From a virus, in IMG/VR virus record IMGVR_UViG_3300036852_000136, positions 1 through 24,832 of that record: a DNA stretch of 24,832 nucleotides; one strand, given 5' to 3'. Each line of letters starts with the position of its first letter. The stretch's first letter is position 1. This document shows, piece by piece, positions 1,710 through 15,219 of the stretch. The notes beneath the pieces are model-generated. The model saw nothing but the letters and a program-made list of their open reading frames with translations, searched no databases and had not been told where the DNA came from. The translations under genes and the position numbers were made by a program.

Positions 1710-2183
1710 ATGAGGATATTCATGGACGCCGAGTTCCACGAGGACGGCCGGACGATCGACCTCATCTCGATCGGCATGGTGCGCGAGGACGGTGCCGAGT
1801 ACTACGCCATCTCGGCTGACTTCGACCTCCAGCGCGCCCAGGCGCATCCCTGGCTCGCCCAGCATGTGCTGCCGCTGCTCGACCCGCAGTACACCTGGAA
1901 GCCCCGTGGAGCCATCGCCCGGGAGATCCTCACGTTCGCCGGCCCATCGCCCGAGTGGTGGGCCTACTACGGCGCCTACGACCATGTGGCGCTCTGCCAG
2001 CTCTACGGGCCGATGATCGCCCTGCCGGCCGCATGGCCGAAGTACAGCCGCGACCTGAAGCAGTGGGCCGATGCCCTCGGCAACCCGACGCTGCCGACGC
2101 AGGAGTCTGGCGAGCACAACGCGCTCAGCGACGCCCGCTGGAACGCTGCCGTCTACGACTTCCTCGCTGGCCTGAACCGCTGA
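1710..2183 (+). CDS. RNase AS-like DEDDh 3'-5' exoribonuclease
   Basis: A 157-residue protein resembling polyadenylate-specific 3'-exoribonuclease AS (the Rv2179c family) of actinobacteria. Visible family features are the N-terminal D6-A-E8-F after a beta strand (MRIFMDAEF), EDGRTIDLISIG, a mid-protein YGAYDH with D91, and a C-terminal H136-N-A-L-S-D141 in EHNALSDARWN. Together these give the DEDDh two-metal exonuclease set. Length is close to the family norm, so it looks intact. The start at 1710 has AAGGGA about ten bases upstream; ATG 1722 is possible but would remove conserved D6. By family knowledge it would trim RNA 3' tails; its role for a phage (mRNA turnover or tail removal) is inference. 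It faces the minus-strand gene at 2200 across 16 bases. Confidence 0.85.
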   Translation: MRIFMDAEFHEDGRTIDLISIGMVREDGAEYYAISADFDLQRAQAHPWLAQHVLPLLDPQYTWKPRGAIAREILTFAGPSPEWWAYYGAYDHVALCQLYGPMIALPAAWPKYSRDLKQWADALGNPTLPTQESGEHNALSDARWNAAVYDFLAGLNR

Positions 2184-2889: not shown

Positions 2890-4107
2890 ATGCAAGGTCA
2901 GGGTACCTGCTCTGCCGAAGGCTGCGAACGTCCTGCCTTCAGGCGTGGACTCTGCACTCGGGACTACAGGCAGCTACGAATCGCCAACGCGCCACAGTGC
3001 TCTGCCGACGGTTGCGACAAGCCTGCTCTTTGCCGCGGCATCTGCGATGGGCACCGCTTGAAGTGGCACATCGCCAATGCGTCGCCGTGTTCGGTCGAGG
3101 GCTGCGAACGTCCTGCCTTTAGGCGTGGACTCTGCGACAGCGACTACAGGCGGCAGTTGCGGCTAGCCAATACGTCAGAGTGCTCTGCTGACGACTGCGA
3201 CAAGCCTGCTGGTAAGCGCGGACTCTGCTCTGCGCACTATTGGCAGTTGCGGGCTGCGGCTGGATCACGGTGCTCTGTCGATGGTTGCGAACGTCCGGCC
3301 ACGGCTCGCGGTCTATGTCGCAGGGATTACTGGCGATGGAGGCAGTACGGCAGCACTGACCTGCCAGTTCGACAGCCGAAGCCGAAGAAGCCCTGCTCTG
3401 TCAAGGGATGCGACAGGCCCGCCCGCGCTCGCGGTATGTGTACAAGGGACTACGAGCGCTGGAAGAAGCACGGGACGCCGGCCGCTCCAGTCCGGCTCAC
3501 ACCTGAGGAGAGCCTAGAGCGTCAGCGAGCGGCTGGCCGCGCCAACTACTGGCGGTACCGCGAGGCCGCCCGCGCGAGGGCCAAGGTGTACTACGCCGCC
3601 AACCGTGAGGCGACGCTGGAACGGGGCCGACGGTATAACGCTGAGCATCGTGAGAAGGTCTCAGAGGCGAATCGGCGGTGGCGCCTCGCCAACCCTGAGC
3701 GAATGGTTGAACTCCGCCAGCGCTGGGGCAAGGAGAATCCTGAGCGCGTCCGTCAGAACGGGGCGAACAAGTACGCAAGGCGCAAGGCGCGAAAGGTCCA
3801 GACCAGCTTTGAGACGGTCGACTACAGCGCCATCCTCGCTAAGCACGGGTGGCACTGCTACCTCTGCGATAACGCCATCGGGACAAAAGCAGAGCTGCAC
3901 TTCGACCACATAATCCCGTTGGCCAAGGGTGGCCCGCACGTTGCCACGAACATCCGGCCAACTCATGCCGTCTGCAACGCCAGGAAAGGAGCGAAGGTCC
4001 TTTGCCCCTTCCTGATTCTGGACCGTGGCCACCCCGGAACGTTGCTGGCGTGTATGACACCTTGGCTACGTGGAGTGCCTGGTACTCAGGGGATGCCGAC
4101 GCCCTGA
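2890..4107 (+). CDS. HNH endonuclease with six tandem Cys-finger modules
   Basis: A 405-residue protein. Residues 7-188 hold six repeats of the form C-x4-C-x9-C-x2-[DH] with RPAxxRGLC-like cores (first module C7, C12, C22, D25). Residues about 195-300 are Arg-rich and helical, with repeated tyrosines. The HNH nuclease is at about 319-370: C323-x2-C326, D339-H340 in FDHIIPLAKGG, H359, C362-N-A-R-K-G. The start is ATG 2890, preceded by AAGGGGAT. Known role of the family: DNA cleavage by a beta-beta-alpha-metal site; the fingers probably give DNA binding (inference). The last ~35 residues are read in a frame that overlaps the start of the portal gene and look unlike the family, so they are probably acquired by insertion. 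Lower G+C and relaxed codon use suggest transfer. An HNH beside the portal may instead assist packaging, but the array favours a mobile nuclease. Confidence 0.88.
   Translation: MQGQGTCSAEGCERPAFRRGLCTRDYRQLRIANAPQCSADGCDKPALCRGICDGHRLKWHIANASPCSVEGCERPAFRRGLCDSDYRRQLRLANTSECSADDCDKPAGKRGLCSAHYWQLRAAAGSRCSVDGCERPATARGLCRRDYWRWRQYGSTDLPVRQPKPKKPCSVKGCDRPARARGMCTRDYERWKKHGTPAAPVRLTPEESLERQRAAGRANYWRYREAARARAKVYYAANREATLERGRRYNAEHREKVSEANRRWRLANPERMVELRQRWGKENPERVRQNGANKYARRKARKVQTSFETVDYSAILAKHGWHCYLCDNAIGTKAELHFDHIIPLAKGGPHVATNIRPTHAVCNARKGAKVLCPFLILDRGHPGTLLACMTPWLRGVPGTQGMPTP
2908..3453 (+). repeat. Array of six finger-coding repeats with an A-B-A-B duplication
   Basis: Six units encode the C-x4-C-x9-C-x2-[DH] module. 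Units 1 and 3 are nearly identical in DNA: 36 bases at 2920-2955 and 3100-3135 differ at one position, 180 bases apart. Units 2 and 4 share a matching stretch offset by 183 bases (GACAAGCCTGCT shared). The array therefore grew in part by copying a two-module block. The fourth ligand position is Asp in units 1, 3, 5 and 6 but His in units 2 and 4. Confidence 0.8.
3984..3991 (+). promoter_or_regulatory. Ribosome binding site deciding the portal TTG start
   Basis: GAAAGGAG lies about ten bases before the TTG at 4002, inside the 3' part of the HNH gene. Without it, the first ATG in the portal frame would cut into residues that look conserved (LPDSGPWPP, VYDTLATW). Confidence 0.7.
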
Positions 4108-12766: not shown

Positions 12767-13084
12767 GTGGCCCAGCTCCCGCAGTTCCTCCTCCGCCACG
12801 TCGTCACCATCGAGCCGAAGACCGGCGACGGTCCGTTCGGCCCGGTGCTCGGGCCGGCGACCACGGTGCGCGTGTTCCTCGACCAGGGGCGTCGCATGGT
12901 GCGTCGCGCCGACGGGGTTCAGGTGGTGAGCGAGGCCAGCATCTACGCCCCCCTGGCGACCGTCTGCCCGCCCGGGAGCCGGGTCACGCTCCCCGACGGG
13001 CGCACCGCCGACGTGATCGTGGCCAAGCGCCGCGATGGCGGTGGGCTGGCGACGCCGGACCACCTTGAGGTCAGCCTCACTTGA
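12767..13084 (+). CDS. Head completion/stopper protein (SPP1 gp16-like)
   Basis: A 105-residue protein from GTG 12767. It has a beta-barrel pattern: LRHVVTIEPKTGDGPFGPVL, ATTVRVFLDQGRRMVRRADG, VVSEASIYAPLATVCPPGSR, VTLPDGRTADVIVAKRRDGG and HLEVSLT. The SxIYAPL...PxGSRVTLPDGR element is typical of head-closure (stopper) and Ad2-type connectors that plug the portal channel after packaging. Size and place between the gp15-like adaptor and the gp10/gp17-like gene support the call. Confidence 0.8.
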   Translation: MAQLPQFLLRHVVTIEPKTGDGPFGPVLGPATTVRVFLDQGRRMVRRADGVQVVSEASIYAPLATVCPPGSRVTLPDGRTADVIVAKRRDGGGLATPDHLEVSLT

Positions 13085-13095
13085 GAGGACGGCGG

Positions 13096-13353
13096 TTGGC
13101 GACGCTGGCGGAGTTCTACGACGCTGAGAAGCGCCAGCCTGGTGACTACTGCAAGGTCACCAGCGACGATCCGGCCGCGACGGACCGCACCGTCTGGTAC
13201 ATCTGCGACCCCAACGGCTGGGTCGGTCGGCTCGTCAATCACACCGTCACCGAGCATGAGGACGGCACCATCACCGTTTCCCCTTCCATCCTCGACCCCA
13301 GGCCGGGCGGCTGGCACGGCTGGCTGGAGCGCGGCGAATGGCGGTCGGTCTGA
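13096..13353 (+). CDS. Small protein with SPSI...GWHGWL pattern (DUF6527-like)
   Basis: An 85-residue protein from TTG 13096, which has GAGAGGAC about five bases upstream. TTG 13081 in the same frame overlaps the previous stop and remains possible. Sequence: FYDAEKRQPGDYCKVTSDDP, TVWYICDPNGW, EDGTITVSPSILDP and GGWHGWLERGEWRSV. The SPSI then WHGWLxxGEW ending resembles small DUF6527-type proteins; this is by-eye recognition. Two Cys (YCKV, YICD) are not in a CxxC pair, so metal binding is uncertain. The stop overlaps the next ATG (TGATG). Confidence 0.72.
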   Translation: MATLAEFYDAEKRQPGDYCKVTSDDPAATDRTVWYICDPNGWVGRLVNHTVTEHEDGTITVSPSILDPRPGGWHGWLERGEWRSV

Positions 13354-13700
13354 TGGCCGGCTCCCGCATGGAGTGGTACGGCGACGAGGTCGAGGCACGC
13401 ACCTACGAGGCGGCGGCCGACGGGCTCGGCGAGGCGATGGAACACCTGCTCGGGGTCTCGCAGCAGCTCGTTCCGCTCGAGGAGGGCACCTTGTTGCGCA
13501 CGGGGAAGGCCGACGCCGACCGGGGCGACCTCGTGGGCGCGGTGTCGTTCGATGGGCCGTACGCGGTCGTGCAGCACGAGGCGCTGGACTACCGCCACGA
13601 CCCTGGCCGCCAAGCCAAGTACCTCGAATCGCCAGCCCATGCGGAGGCGCCGACCATGGCGGCGCTGATCGCCGCGCGCATCCGTGAGGCCATGGCCTGA
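13353..13700 (+). CDS. Head-tail connector/tail completion protein (HK97 gp10-like)
   Basis: A 115-residue protein starting at ATG 13353 in a TGATG overlap; ATG 13338 in frame is a longer alternative. Features: EARTYEAAADGLGEAMEHLLG helix, LVPLEEGTLLRTG, a beta stretch GDLVGAVSFDGPYAVVQHE, then LDYRHDPGRQAKYLESP and a final helix MAALIAARIREAM. The VPLxxGTLxxTG and YAxxQHE...GRQAKYLE elements are hallmarks of gp10-like minor structural/connector proteins. Its stop overlaps the start of the split small gene at 13700. Confidence 0.85.
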   Translation: MAGSRMEWYGDEVEARTYEAAADGLGEAMEHLLGVSQQLVPLEEGTLLRTGKADADRGDLVGAVSFDGPYAVVQHEALDYRHDPGRQAKYLESPAHAEAPTMAALIAARIREAMA

Positions 13701-13756
13701 TGACGACCATCGCGGTGGGACTTCGACGGGTTATTCACCGACATTCCTGCGGCTGA
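13700..13756 (+). pseudogene. 5' part of a small gene split by the endonuclease VII insertion
   Basis: The ATG at 13700 overlaps the previous stop, as at most junctions here. Codons 1-11 read MTTIAVGLRRV; after that the frame enters the endonuclease gene (antisense) and stops at 13754-13756. Codon 11 is GTT at 13730. A matching in-frame GTT occurs at 14406 in the 3' part. Removing the 676 bases between them restores one 37-codon frame. Confidence 0.5.
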
Positions 13757-14303
13757 CCTTAATTTGGTGAGTCTCCAAATACGCGACAGCGGATCGCAGG
13801 ATGTTGAGGTCATCGCAGAAGTTCCCGAGTCCGGCATTGCACTTCCCGCAGATCAGACCACGGCGGCACTTCCCGCACGACTTCCAGCGATCAGAACAGC
13901 AGGAATGATCGTGGTCGACGGTAAGACGTGGAGGAATCTTCCCGCAGATGAGGCACTTATGTCCCTGCGCCGCCGCTAGACGGTCTCGTTCGGGCTTGGT
14001 GAGTCCGTGCCTAACGCGCGGCTTCCTCTGCTGGTAGTCCCGTTGCCACGCTCGCTTCTCCTCGATGTGAGCGCGGTAGTACGCCGCGCCTCGGGCCTTG
14101 ACGCCTTCTGGATCCTCCGCCCGCTTGCGGCGCGCATACTCGCGCGCAGCGGCCTTGACGCGCTCGGGATGTCGCTCCTTATACCTCCGGGATGCCGCGC
14201 AACCGCATAGCTTGCACCGGCCCGCCAGACCGTCCTTGCTGGACTTGCTGCGGCCAAAGTCCGCTAGCGGTTTTTCGAGCTTGCACTCACTGCATCTCTT
14301 CAC
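13731..14303 (-). CDS. Endonuclease VII-type HNH (His-Me finger) nuclease
   Basis: A 190-residue minus-strand protein. N-terminal zinc ribbon: C4-x2-C7 and C30-x2-C33 (RCSECKLEKP, RCKLCG). The middle (40-100) is Arg/Glu-rich and helical. The recombination endonuclease VII core is at 100-178: GLTKPERDRLAAAQGHKCLIC with C117/C120, TVDHDHS with D130-H131-D132-H133, and RGLICGKCNAGLG with C152, C155 and N156, ending in AVAYLE. The start is GTG 14303 with GAGGGAG seven bases upstream. Known role: metal-dependent cutting of branched or specific DNA; phage free-standing members act as homing nucleases. The stop TAA lies exactly where the host gene is interrupted. Lower G+C than the surroundings marks it as a late arrival. 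Confidence 0.9.
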   Translation of the reverse strand: MKRCSECKLEKPLADFGRSKSSKDGLAGRCKLCGCAASRRYKERHPERVKAAAREYARRKRAEDPEGVKARGAAYYRAHIEEKRAWQRDYQQRKPRVRHGLTKPERDRLAAAQGHKCLICGKIPPRLTVDHDHSCCSDRWKSCGKCRRGLICGKCNAGLGNFCDDLNILRSAVAYLETHQIKVSRRNVGE

Positions 14304-14390
14304 GCAGTTACTCCCTCATCGCCGGAAGTTTGGCCGAACTGGTGTCGTAGTCGCCTATCGCAAATAGTATCACACGCAAGGACTTTGCGA

Positions 14391-14489
14391 TTGATAATCG
14401 AGCGAGTTGCCTACATCGATGATCGCGCCATCCGGTTCGAGTCATGGCCGCAGGCACTCGCCGAGCTGGACAAGGCGCTGGGCACCTGA
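14391..14489 (+). pseudogene. 3' part of the split small gene
   Basis: A frame with typical local codon use reads VAYIDDRAIRFESW and then LAELDKALGT, ending at TGA 14487-14489, which overlaps the next ATG. It joins in frame with the 5' part at 13700. An upstream TTG at 14391 preceded by AAGGAC eight bases away could still start a 32-residue product, so residual expression is possible. Bases 14304-14390, upstream of it, look A+T richer and contain the endonuclease start signals on the other strand but no other gene. Confidence 0.5.
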
Positions 14490-14782
14490 TGGCCACCACT
14501 TACGACCTCGGCAGCGGCCACCGGGCCCGGTTCTACCGCACGTCCATCGCCGAGTGGCCCATCGGCGCTGTCGACCTCTATCGGGCTCCGGACGGTTCGC
14601 CGTGTGGGTGCAGCCTGCCGTTCGCCGACAGCCCGGAGGCGTGGCGTACACGGGCGGATGGGAGCGTGCTCCCGGGCTGGCAGGTCATCTCCCATGCGCC
14701 GCTCACCCTGATCCCGTCGGTCGTCTGCGCCCGCTGCGGAACGCACGGCTTCATCACCGACGGGCGCTGGAGGGCGGTCTGA
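14489..14782 (+). CDS. Small Cys-containing protein of unknown function
   Basis: A 97-residue protein whose ATG (14489) overlaps the stop of the split gene. It reads SGHRARFYRTSIAEWPIGAVD, PDGSPCGCSLPFADS, VLPGWQVISHAPLTL and VCARCGTHGFITDGRWRAV. Cys/His residues C39, C41, H69, C80, C83 and H86 could form one or two metal sites. The terminal HGFxxxGRW resembles the end of the protein at 13096. No catalytic motif. Its stop overlaps the tail terminator start, giving coupled translation. Confidence 0.75.
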   Translation: MATTYDLGSGHRARFYRTSIAEWPIGAVDLYRAPDGSPCGCSLPFADSPEAWRTRADGSVLPGWQVISHAPLTLIPSVVCARCGTHGFITDGRWRAV

Positions 14783-15219
14783 TGGCCTTCACCAGCGACC
14801 TGCTCGCCGGCCTTGCCGTGTTCCTGGACGACGCCGGAATCGGCGCCTGGCATCCCGACGGGGCGCCATACACAGCCGATGAGGTGGCAATCACGCTGCG
14901 GGCGCTGCCGGACAAGCCGGACCGGGCGCTGGCGCTCGCCGCGTACCCGCTGAGCGACCACCCGAGCGAGAACGACAGCAAGATCGGTGTGCAGGTCCGC
15001 ACCCGTGGCGCTGGCCAGGACCCACGCGGCGCCGACGACCTCAACGACGCGGTGTTCGAGGTGCTGCACGGCCTGACGGAGACGGTGATCGGCGGGGTCT
15101 ACGTGATCCAGGCGCTGCGCCAGTCCAGCGCGCCGCTCGGCCGCGACGAGTCCGGGCGATTCGAGGCCGTCTCGAACTTCCACCTGGACTGCGCCCGTCC
15201 GACGCCGCTTCGCCCCTGA
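14782..15219 (+). CDS. Tail terminator protein
   Basis: A 145-residue protein from ATG 14782. Pattern: DLLAGLAVFLDDAGIGAWHP, EVAITLRALPDKPDRALALA, YPLSDHPSENDSKIGVQVRTRG, DPRGADDLNDAVFEVLHGLT, then VYVIQALRQSSAPLGRDESGR and FEAVSNFHLD. The helix, strand (VQVRxRG) and ADDLNDAVFExLHG arrangement is typical of siphovirus tail terminators (minor capsid/gp17-like family). These cap the tail tube and join it to the head. The location right before the major tail gene agrees. Confidence 0.85.
   Translation: MAFTSDLLAGLAVFLDDAGIGAWHPDGAPYTADEVAITLRALPDKPDRALALAAYPLSDHPSENDSKIGVQVRTRGAGQDPRGADDLNDAVFEVLHGLTETVIGGVYVIQALRQSSAPLGRDESGRFEAVSNFHLDCARPTPLRP

Follow-up and report, generated by a model that had tools for sequence, protein, structure and literature searches.

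Endo VII-type endonuclease gene lying antisense between the two ends of a broken HAD-type phosphatase gene in an actinophage-type structural operon

The structural operon in IMG/VR record IMGVR_UViG_3300036852_000136 (positions 1-24,832, a single viral contig; the window) contains an endonuclease VII (Endo VII)-type nuclease gene enclosed, on the opposite strand, by the 5' and 3' ends of a gene that encoded a small HAD-type phosphatase. The best explanation, with a probability of about 0.88, is that a moron phosphatase gene of the head-tail operon was invaded by a free-standing endonuclease of the homing type, and that the core of the phosphatase gene was lost. The two pieces bracket the nuclease, and each is still coupled to its outer operon gene: ATG 13700 shares a TGATG overlap with the TGA of the minor capsid gene, whose stop thus overlaps the start of the phosphatase remnant, while the frame of the 3' remnant stops at TGA 14487-14489, again in a TGATG overlap with the next gene. 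The edges of the insert can be placed to within ~15 bp. An earlier note on this DNA had recognized an antisense Endo VII-type nuclease inside the remains of another operon gene, as is borne out here, and had pointed to the TGATG overlaps at both outer junctions, which are present and belong to the broken phosphatase gene.

Identification of the remnants relied on two phosphatase profiles, one built from 14 intact relatives and one from 83 relatives gathered out of viral contigs. The right piece (14403-14486) matches both, with expectation values (E) of 2.7e-9 and 5.2e-7, respectively, and is aligned to their last ~24 positions. It covers the C-terminal ~24-28 residues of a HAD-type phosphatase that measures ~120 residues when intact, and includes the motif IV region, YIDDRAIRF, and the family C-terminus. 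The left piece (13700-13758) was recovered by a profile search tolerating frameshifts, applied to the whole window with 20 shuffled windows as control. It scores 23.5 bits, against -1.0 for the next best segment of the window and a maximum of -1.3 for the shuffles, and the match sits exactly at the gene start. Intact proteins of the family start xxTVAVDFDGVIHxYSKGW and finish xxVAYIDDRAIRFxxWxQALxDL; the left piece translates as MTTIAV-GLRR-VIHRHSCG-stop. Compared with the family pattern, motif I, DFDG, has become GLRR by the gain of one G (GTGGAC to GTGGGAC) and the loss of one G about ten bases further on (GGGGTT to GGGTT), and the conserved GW has become G-stop (TGA 13754-13756). At the DNA level the piece aligns base by base with the gene starts of relatives, the best being locus L099 (GTGGACTTCGATGGTGTGATCCATCGGTATTCCAAGGGCTGG in the window against GTGGGACTTCGACGGGTTATTCACCGACATTCCTGCGGCTGA). 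By profile and alignment, both pieces are identified as ends of one HAD-type phosphatase gene.

The family to which these ends belong is an accessory gene of ~120 residues that occurs across many viral contigs as well as in some named phages. It looks HAD-like, with a match to PDB 2obb (E 2e-7) and weak matches to Pfam HAD families, and the name phosphatase is taken from its HAD motifs. The two remnants align to the two ends of Gordonia phage Nithya gp83, of gp54 of Streptomyces phages Zuko and KimJongPhill, and of phrog_1238, proteins whose annotations read polynucleotide kinase or phosphoheptose isomerase; unlike these, the window gene lacks both the core and motif I. In intact relatives GW and YIDDR are separated by a median of 81 residues (60-107), and profile scans found no match to this ~80-residue core (profile positions ~20-94) anywhere in the window, so that motifs II and III (Thr/Ser and Lys) have no counterpart there. 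Motif I, DxD(G), is intact in 80 of the 83 relatives and lost in the window. With motif I mutated, the core absent and a stop within the 5' piece, the phosphatase is, to judge from its sequence, dead. The loss probably cost the phage little, since the family occurs elsewhere among accessory genes; the earlier view that the interrupted gene was expendable holds.

The nuclease, by contrast with its host gene, has the appearance of an intact enzyme. A zinc pair of the form CX2-4C (C117-L-I-C120) lies ahead of the central DHDH (residues 130-133), which is followed by the conserved Arg, a CX2C and then Asn (R148-GLIC, C152-GK-C155-N156). With every residue in place of the DHHRN motif known from F-CphI (PMC6083498), the nuclease is probably active. 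It may act as a homing enzyme instead of a resolvase. Besides PF02945 it matches Endo VII PHROGs, homology to phrog_2633 ending at residue 180; family homology in general stops at residues ~177-182, where phosphatase homology starts. The final ~8 codons of the nuclease (about VSRRNVGE), together with its stop, are contributed by the opposite strand of the phosphatase remnant, the stop TAA lying at 13731-13733, as the earlier note had it. A C-terminal comparison of nuclease relatives found that the tails after the YL(E) position are short and dissimilar. The insert also differs in composition, the nuclease having 62% G+C and the leader 50.5% versus 70.3% for the window. The leader carries an inverted repeat, ATCGCAAA (14357-14364) and TTTGCGAT (14384-14391), overlapping a promoter-like site on the + strand (14369-14398), and these could serve either the nuclease or the downstream genes. 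Between the leader and those of nuclease relatives there are only short, chance-level matches, and the insert edges show no direct repeats beyond short matches.

A pathway that would account for this arrangement starts with an actinophage-type structural operon that gained a moron gene, encoding a small phosphatase of the HAD type, in the interval from the minor capsid gene to the tail terminator gene. A ~645-bp cassette for a free-standing endonuclease of Endo VII type (DHHRN) would then have inserted antisense into the phosphatase gene, and ~240 bp of phosphatase core would have been lost, in the same event, before it or after it. The nuclease retains an intact frame, its final codons and its stop being supplied by the opposite strand of the broken gene. 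We infer this order of events, as well as a mechanism in which breaks made by the nuclease were followed by imprecise repair; imprecise entry fits the case, with the host-gene sequence lost simultaneously or separately.

Several observations weigh against this account. The left piece by itself is weak, being only the second-best segment of the window in a profile search (E 0.5) unless indels are allowed, and those indels are known from the sequence of one viral contig alone. Searches with the phosphatase alignment, and with the proteins of the minor capsid, DUF6527-like and tail terminator genes, turned up no relative whose phosphatase is intact at exactly this position, and the empty site is reconstructed from the family. 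Nor was there another phosphatase locus with this nuclease, which leaves targeted homing into the gene unsupported: a survey of 80 nuclease loci and about 100 phosphatase loci revealed no recurrent pairing. That the cassette behaves as a mobile element aimed at the phosphatase family, regularly replacing the core and using the host antisense strand as its C-terminus and stop, is very doubtful.

The earlier note had proposed a tidier event, in which an intact 37-codon gene was cut by a clean insertion of 676 bp between two GTT codons. The coordinates hold: GTT occurs at 13730 and 14406 with 676 bases between, and their removal yields an open 37-codon frame with both TGATG overlaps. However, the left frame runs through 18 codons without a stop (13700-13753) and the right through 73, back to 14268, so that 1,314 in-frame joins are possible; in 19 the same codon stands on both sides, and in 54 a 3-mer is shared. 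Because 19 of 1,314 open joins share an identical codon, the GTT join is uninformative, and the exact rejoining offered as evidence of the original gene does not rise above chance. Phosphatase homology, moreover, runs to ~13757, 25 bp past the proposed left edge and beyond the nuclease stop; the right edge (~14403-14406) was placed about correctly, whereas the left one belongs near 13757, not at 13732. Residues 12-37 of the joined reading correspond to the C-terminal end of a family of longer proteins, and the gene that was broken did not have 37 codons: it encoded a HAD phosphatase of ~120 residues, the two ends of which remain while the middle is absent. As a gene in its own right the 37-residue peptide was rejected: it has no full-length match among phage proteins, no Pfam family and no convincing PHROG family, its C-terminal half alone matching phage proteins labeled polynucleotide kinase or HAD-like and, weakly, a region near the C-terminus of phrog_1238. 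No relative with an uninterrupted 37-residue gene here was found, and the reference phages inspected have the flanking structural genes adjacent. Clean insertion is therefore highly improbable; the 37-codon gene most likely never existed and the join is a coincidence. An open frame made by excising an insert is no evidence of an original gene, and the true host gene emerges only via its protein family.

A more serious competitor, although still an unlikely one, has the phosphatase shrinking by internal deletion before the nuclease arrived, with the short gene of the earlier note approximating the intermediate. This is a sub-case of nuclease entry with core loss, differing in event order only. 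Only the gene ends remain, and one sequence cannot give the order of events; two events at the same place would be required, however, and the intermediate is seen in no relative. Nucleases do divide phage genes into working halves (PMC2988022), and the locus could in principle be a functional split gene, its pieces translated apart and reassembling, or the nuclease could reside in a spliced element. Covariance models, however, gave no Rfam match in the window that reached the gathering score, self-splicing introns included, and with ~80 residues missing the two parts do not add up to a complete protein. Because the core is absent from the DNA and motif I is lost, neither splicing, for which the earlier note had allowed, nor reassembly would yield an enzyme, and this is the least probable of the readings considered. 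That the locus is an assembly artefact fusing two phages is also very improbable. The material is a single viral contig with two G-run indels within 13715-13730, but a chimera would not bracket the insert with both ends of one gene, in the correct order and strand and with operon overlaps outside. The entry of a free-standing nuclease gene into the phosphatase gene, with loss of the core, is the best explanation of the locus, whose features are given in Table 1.

Table 1. Features of the broken phosphatase locus and its neighbors in the window
Feature	Position	Strand	Basis
Minor capsid / neck protein gene, left neighbor	13338..13700	+	phrog_556 E 7e-7; actinophage relatives 45-53% identical
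5' remnant of HAD-type phosphatase gene, ~19 residues	13700..13757	+	Frameshift-tolerant scan; DNA alignment with relatives
Endo VII (DHHRN-type) endonuclease, 190 aa	13731..14303	-	PF02945 E 1.5e-17; phrog_2633 E 1.6e-27
Nuclease upstream leader	14304..14402	no strand	Low G+C, inverted repeat, promoter-like site
3' remnant of HAD-type phosphatase gene, RVAYIDDRAIRFESWPQALAELDKALGT, motif IV (DD) and native stop	14403..14489	+	Profile matches
DUF6527-like small gene, right neighbor, accessory	14489..14782	+	PF20137 E 5e-4, below cut-off; relatives found
Tail terminator / head-tail connector	14782..15219	+	phrog_2595 E 1e-35; 149 phage records

In the reference actinophages inspected, the minor capsid gene directly neighbors the tail terminator gene; in the window 1,082 bp separate the two, the space being taken up by the phosphatase wreck, the nuclease and the DUF6527-like gene. 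A second DUF6527-like small gene (13081-13353, +), above the Pfam cut-off, lies on the other side of the minor capsid gene, and Micromonospora phage pMLP1, the closest reference relative, has neither of the two at that place. Relatives of five accessory genes (109-363, 300-596, 1710-2183, 13700-14489 and 14489-14782) recur pairwise in other viral contigs, as if drawn from one actinophage accessory-gene pool. The gene at 1710-2183 (+) encodes an Rv2179c-like 3'-5' exoribonuclease and stands beside an HNH_3 nuclease gene (1165-1692, -); at three loci (L116, L119 and L145) such an exoribonuclease is within ~0.6 kb of an intact HAD phosphatase copy. Another nuclease gene (2890-4107, +) encodes an HNH endonuclease, with about six zinc-type repeats of the pattern C-x3-[GD]-C-x-[RK]-P-A-x3-RG-[LIM]-C arrayed along its N-terminal half. 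There is an overlap between this gene and the longest portal frame (TTG 4002), the true portal start probably being later.

Among nucleases lodged in phage genes the window represents a further case, one of Endo VII type situated in an actinophage-type structural operon, and it provides an example of an accessory gene destroyed with sequence loss and not cleanly split. It is a fairly ordinary gene break, with a selfish-type nuclease gene inside the wreck. Homing endonuclease insertions into phage genes have been described as transposition-like (PMC2988022), and mobE in nrdA of Aeromonas phage Aeh1 and mobA in gene 60 of T4 resemble the window in that a nuclease lies within a phage gene without a recognized intron or intein (PMC2988022). 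In those cases the host gene is functionally critical and its coding sequence is divided in two, an arrangement demonstrated to be functional for nrdA, whereas in the window the host gene is accessory, two thirds of it are gone and the nuclease is antisense. F-CphI and the DHHRN family share with the window enzyme the catalytic motif (CX2C, DHDH, R, CX2C, N), small size and a C-terminal catalytic domain (PMC6083498), but no intron was found at the window locus, and cleavage by the nuclease here is predicted. The ShiLan element in an actinophage methylase gene is likewise an out-of-frame endonuclease in a coding gene with neither intron nor intein (PMC11855218). There the host frame stays open, with the HNH enzyme in another frame, whereas the window has a destroyed host gene with the nuclease encoded on the opposite strand.
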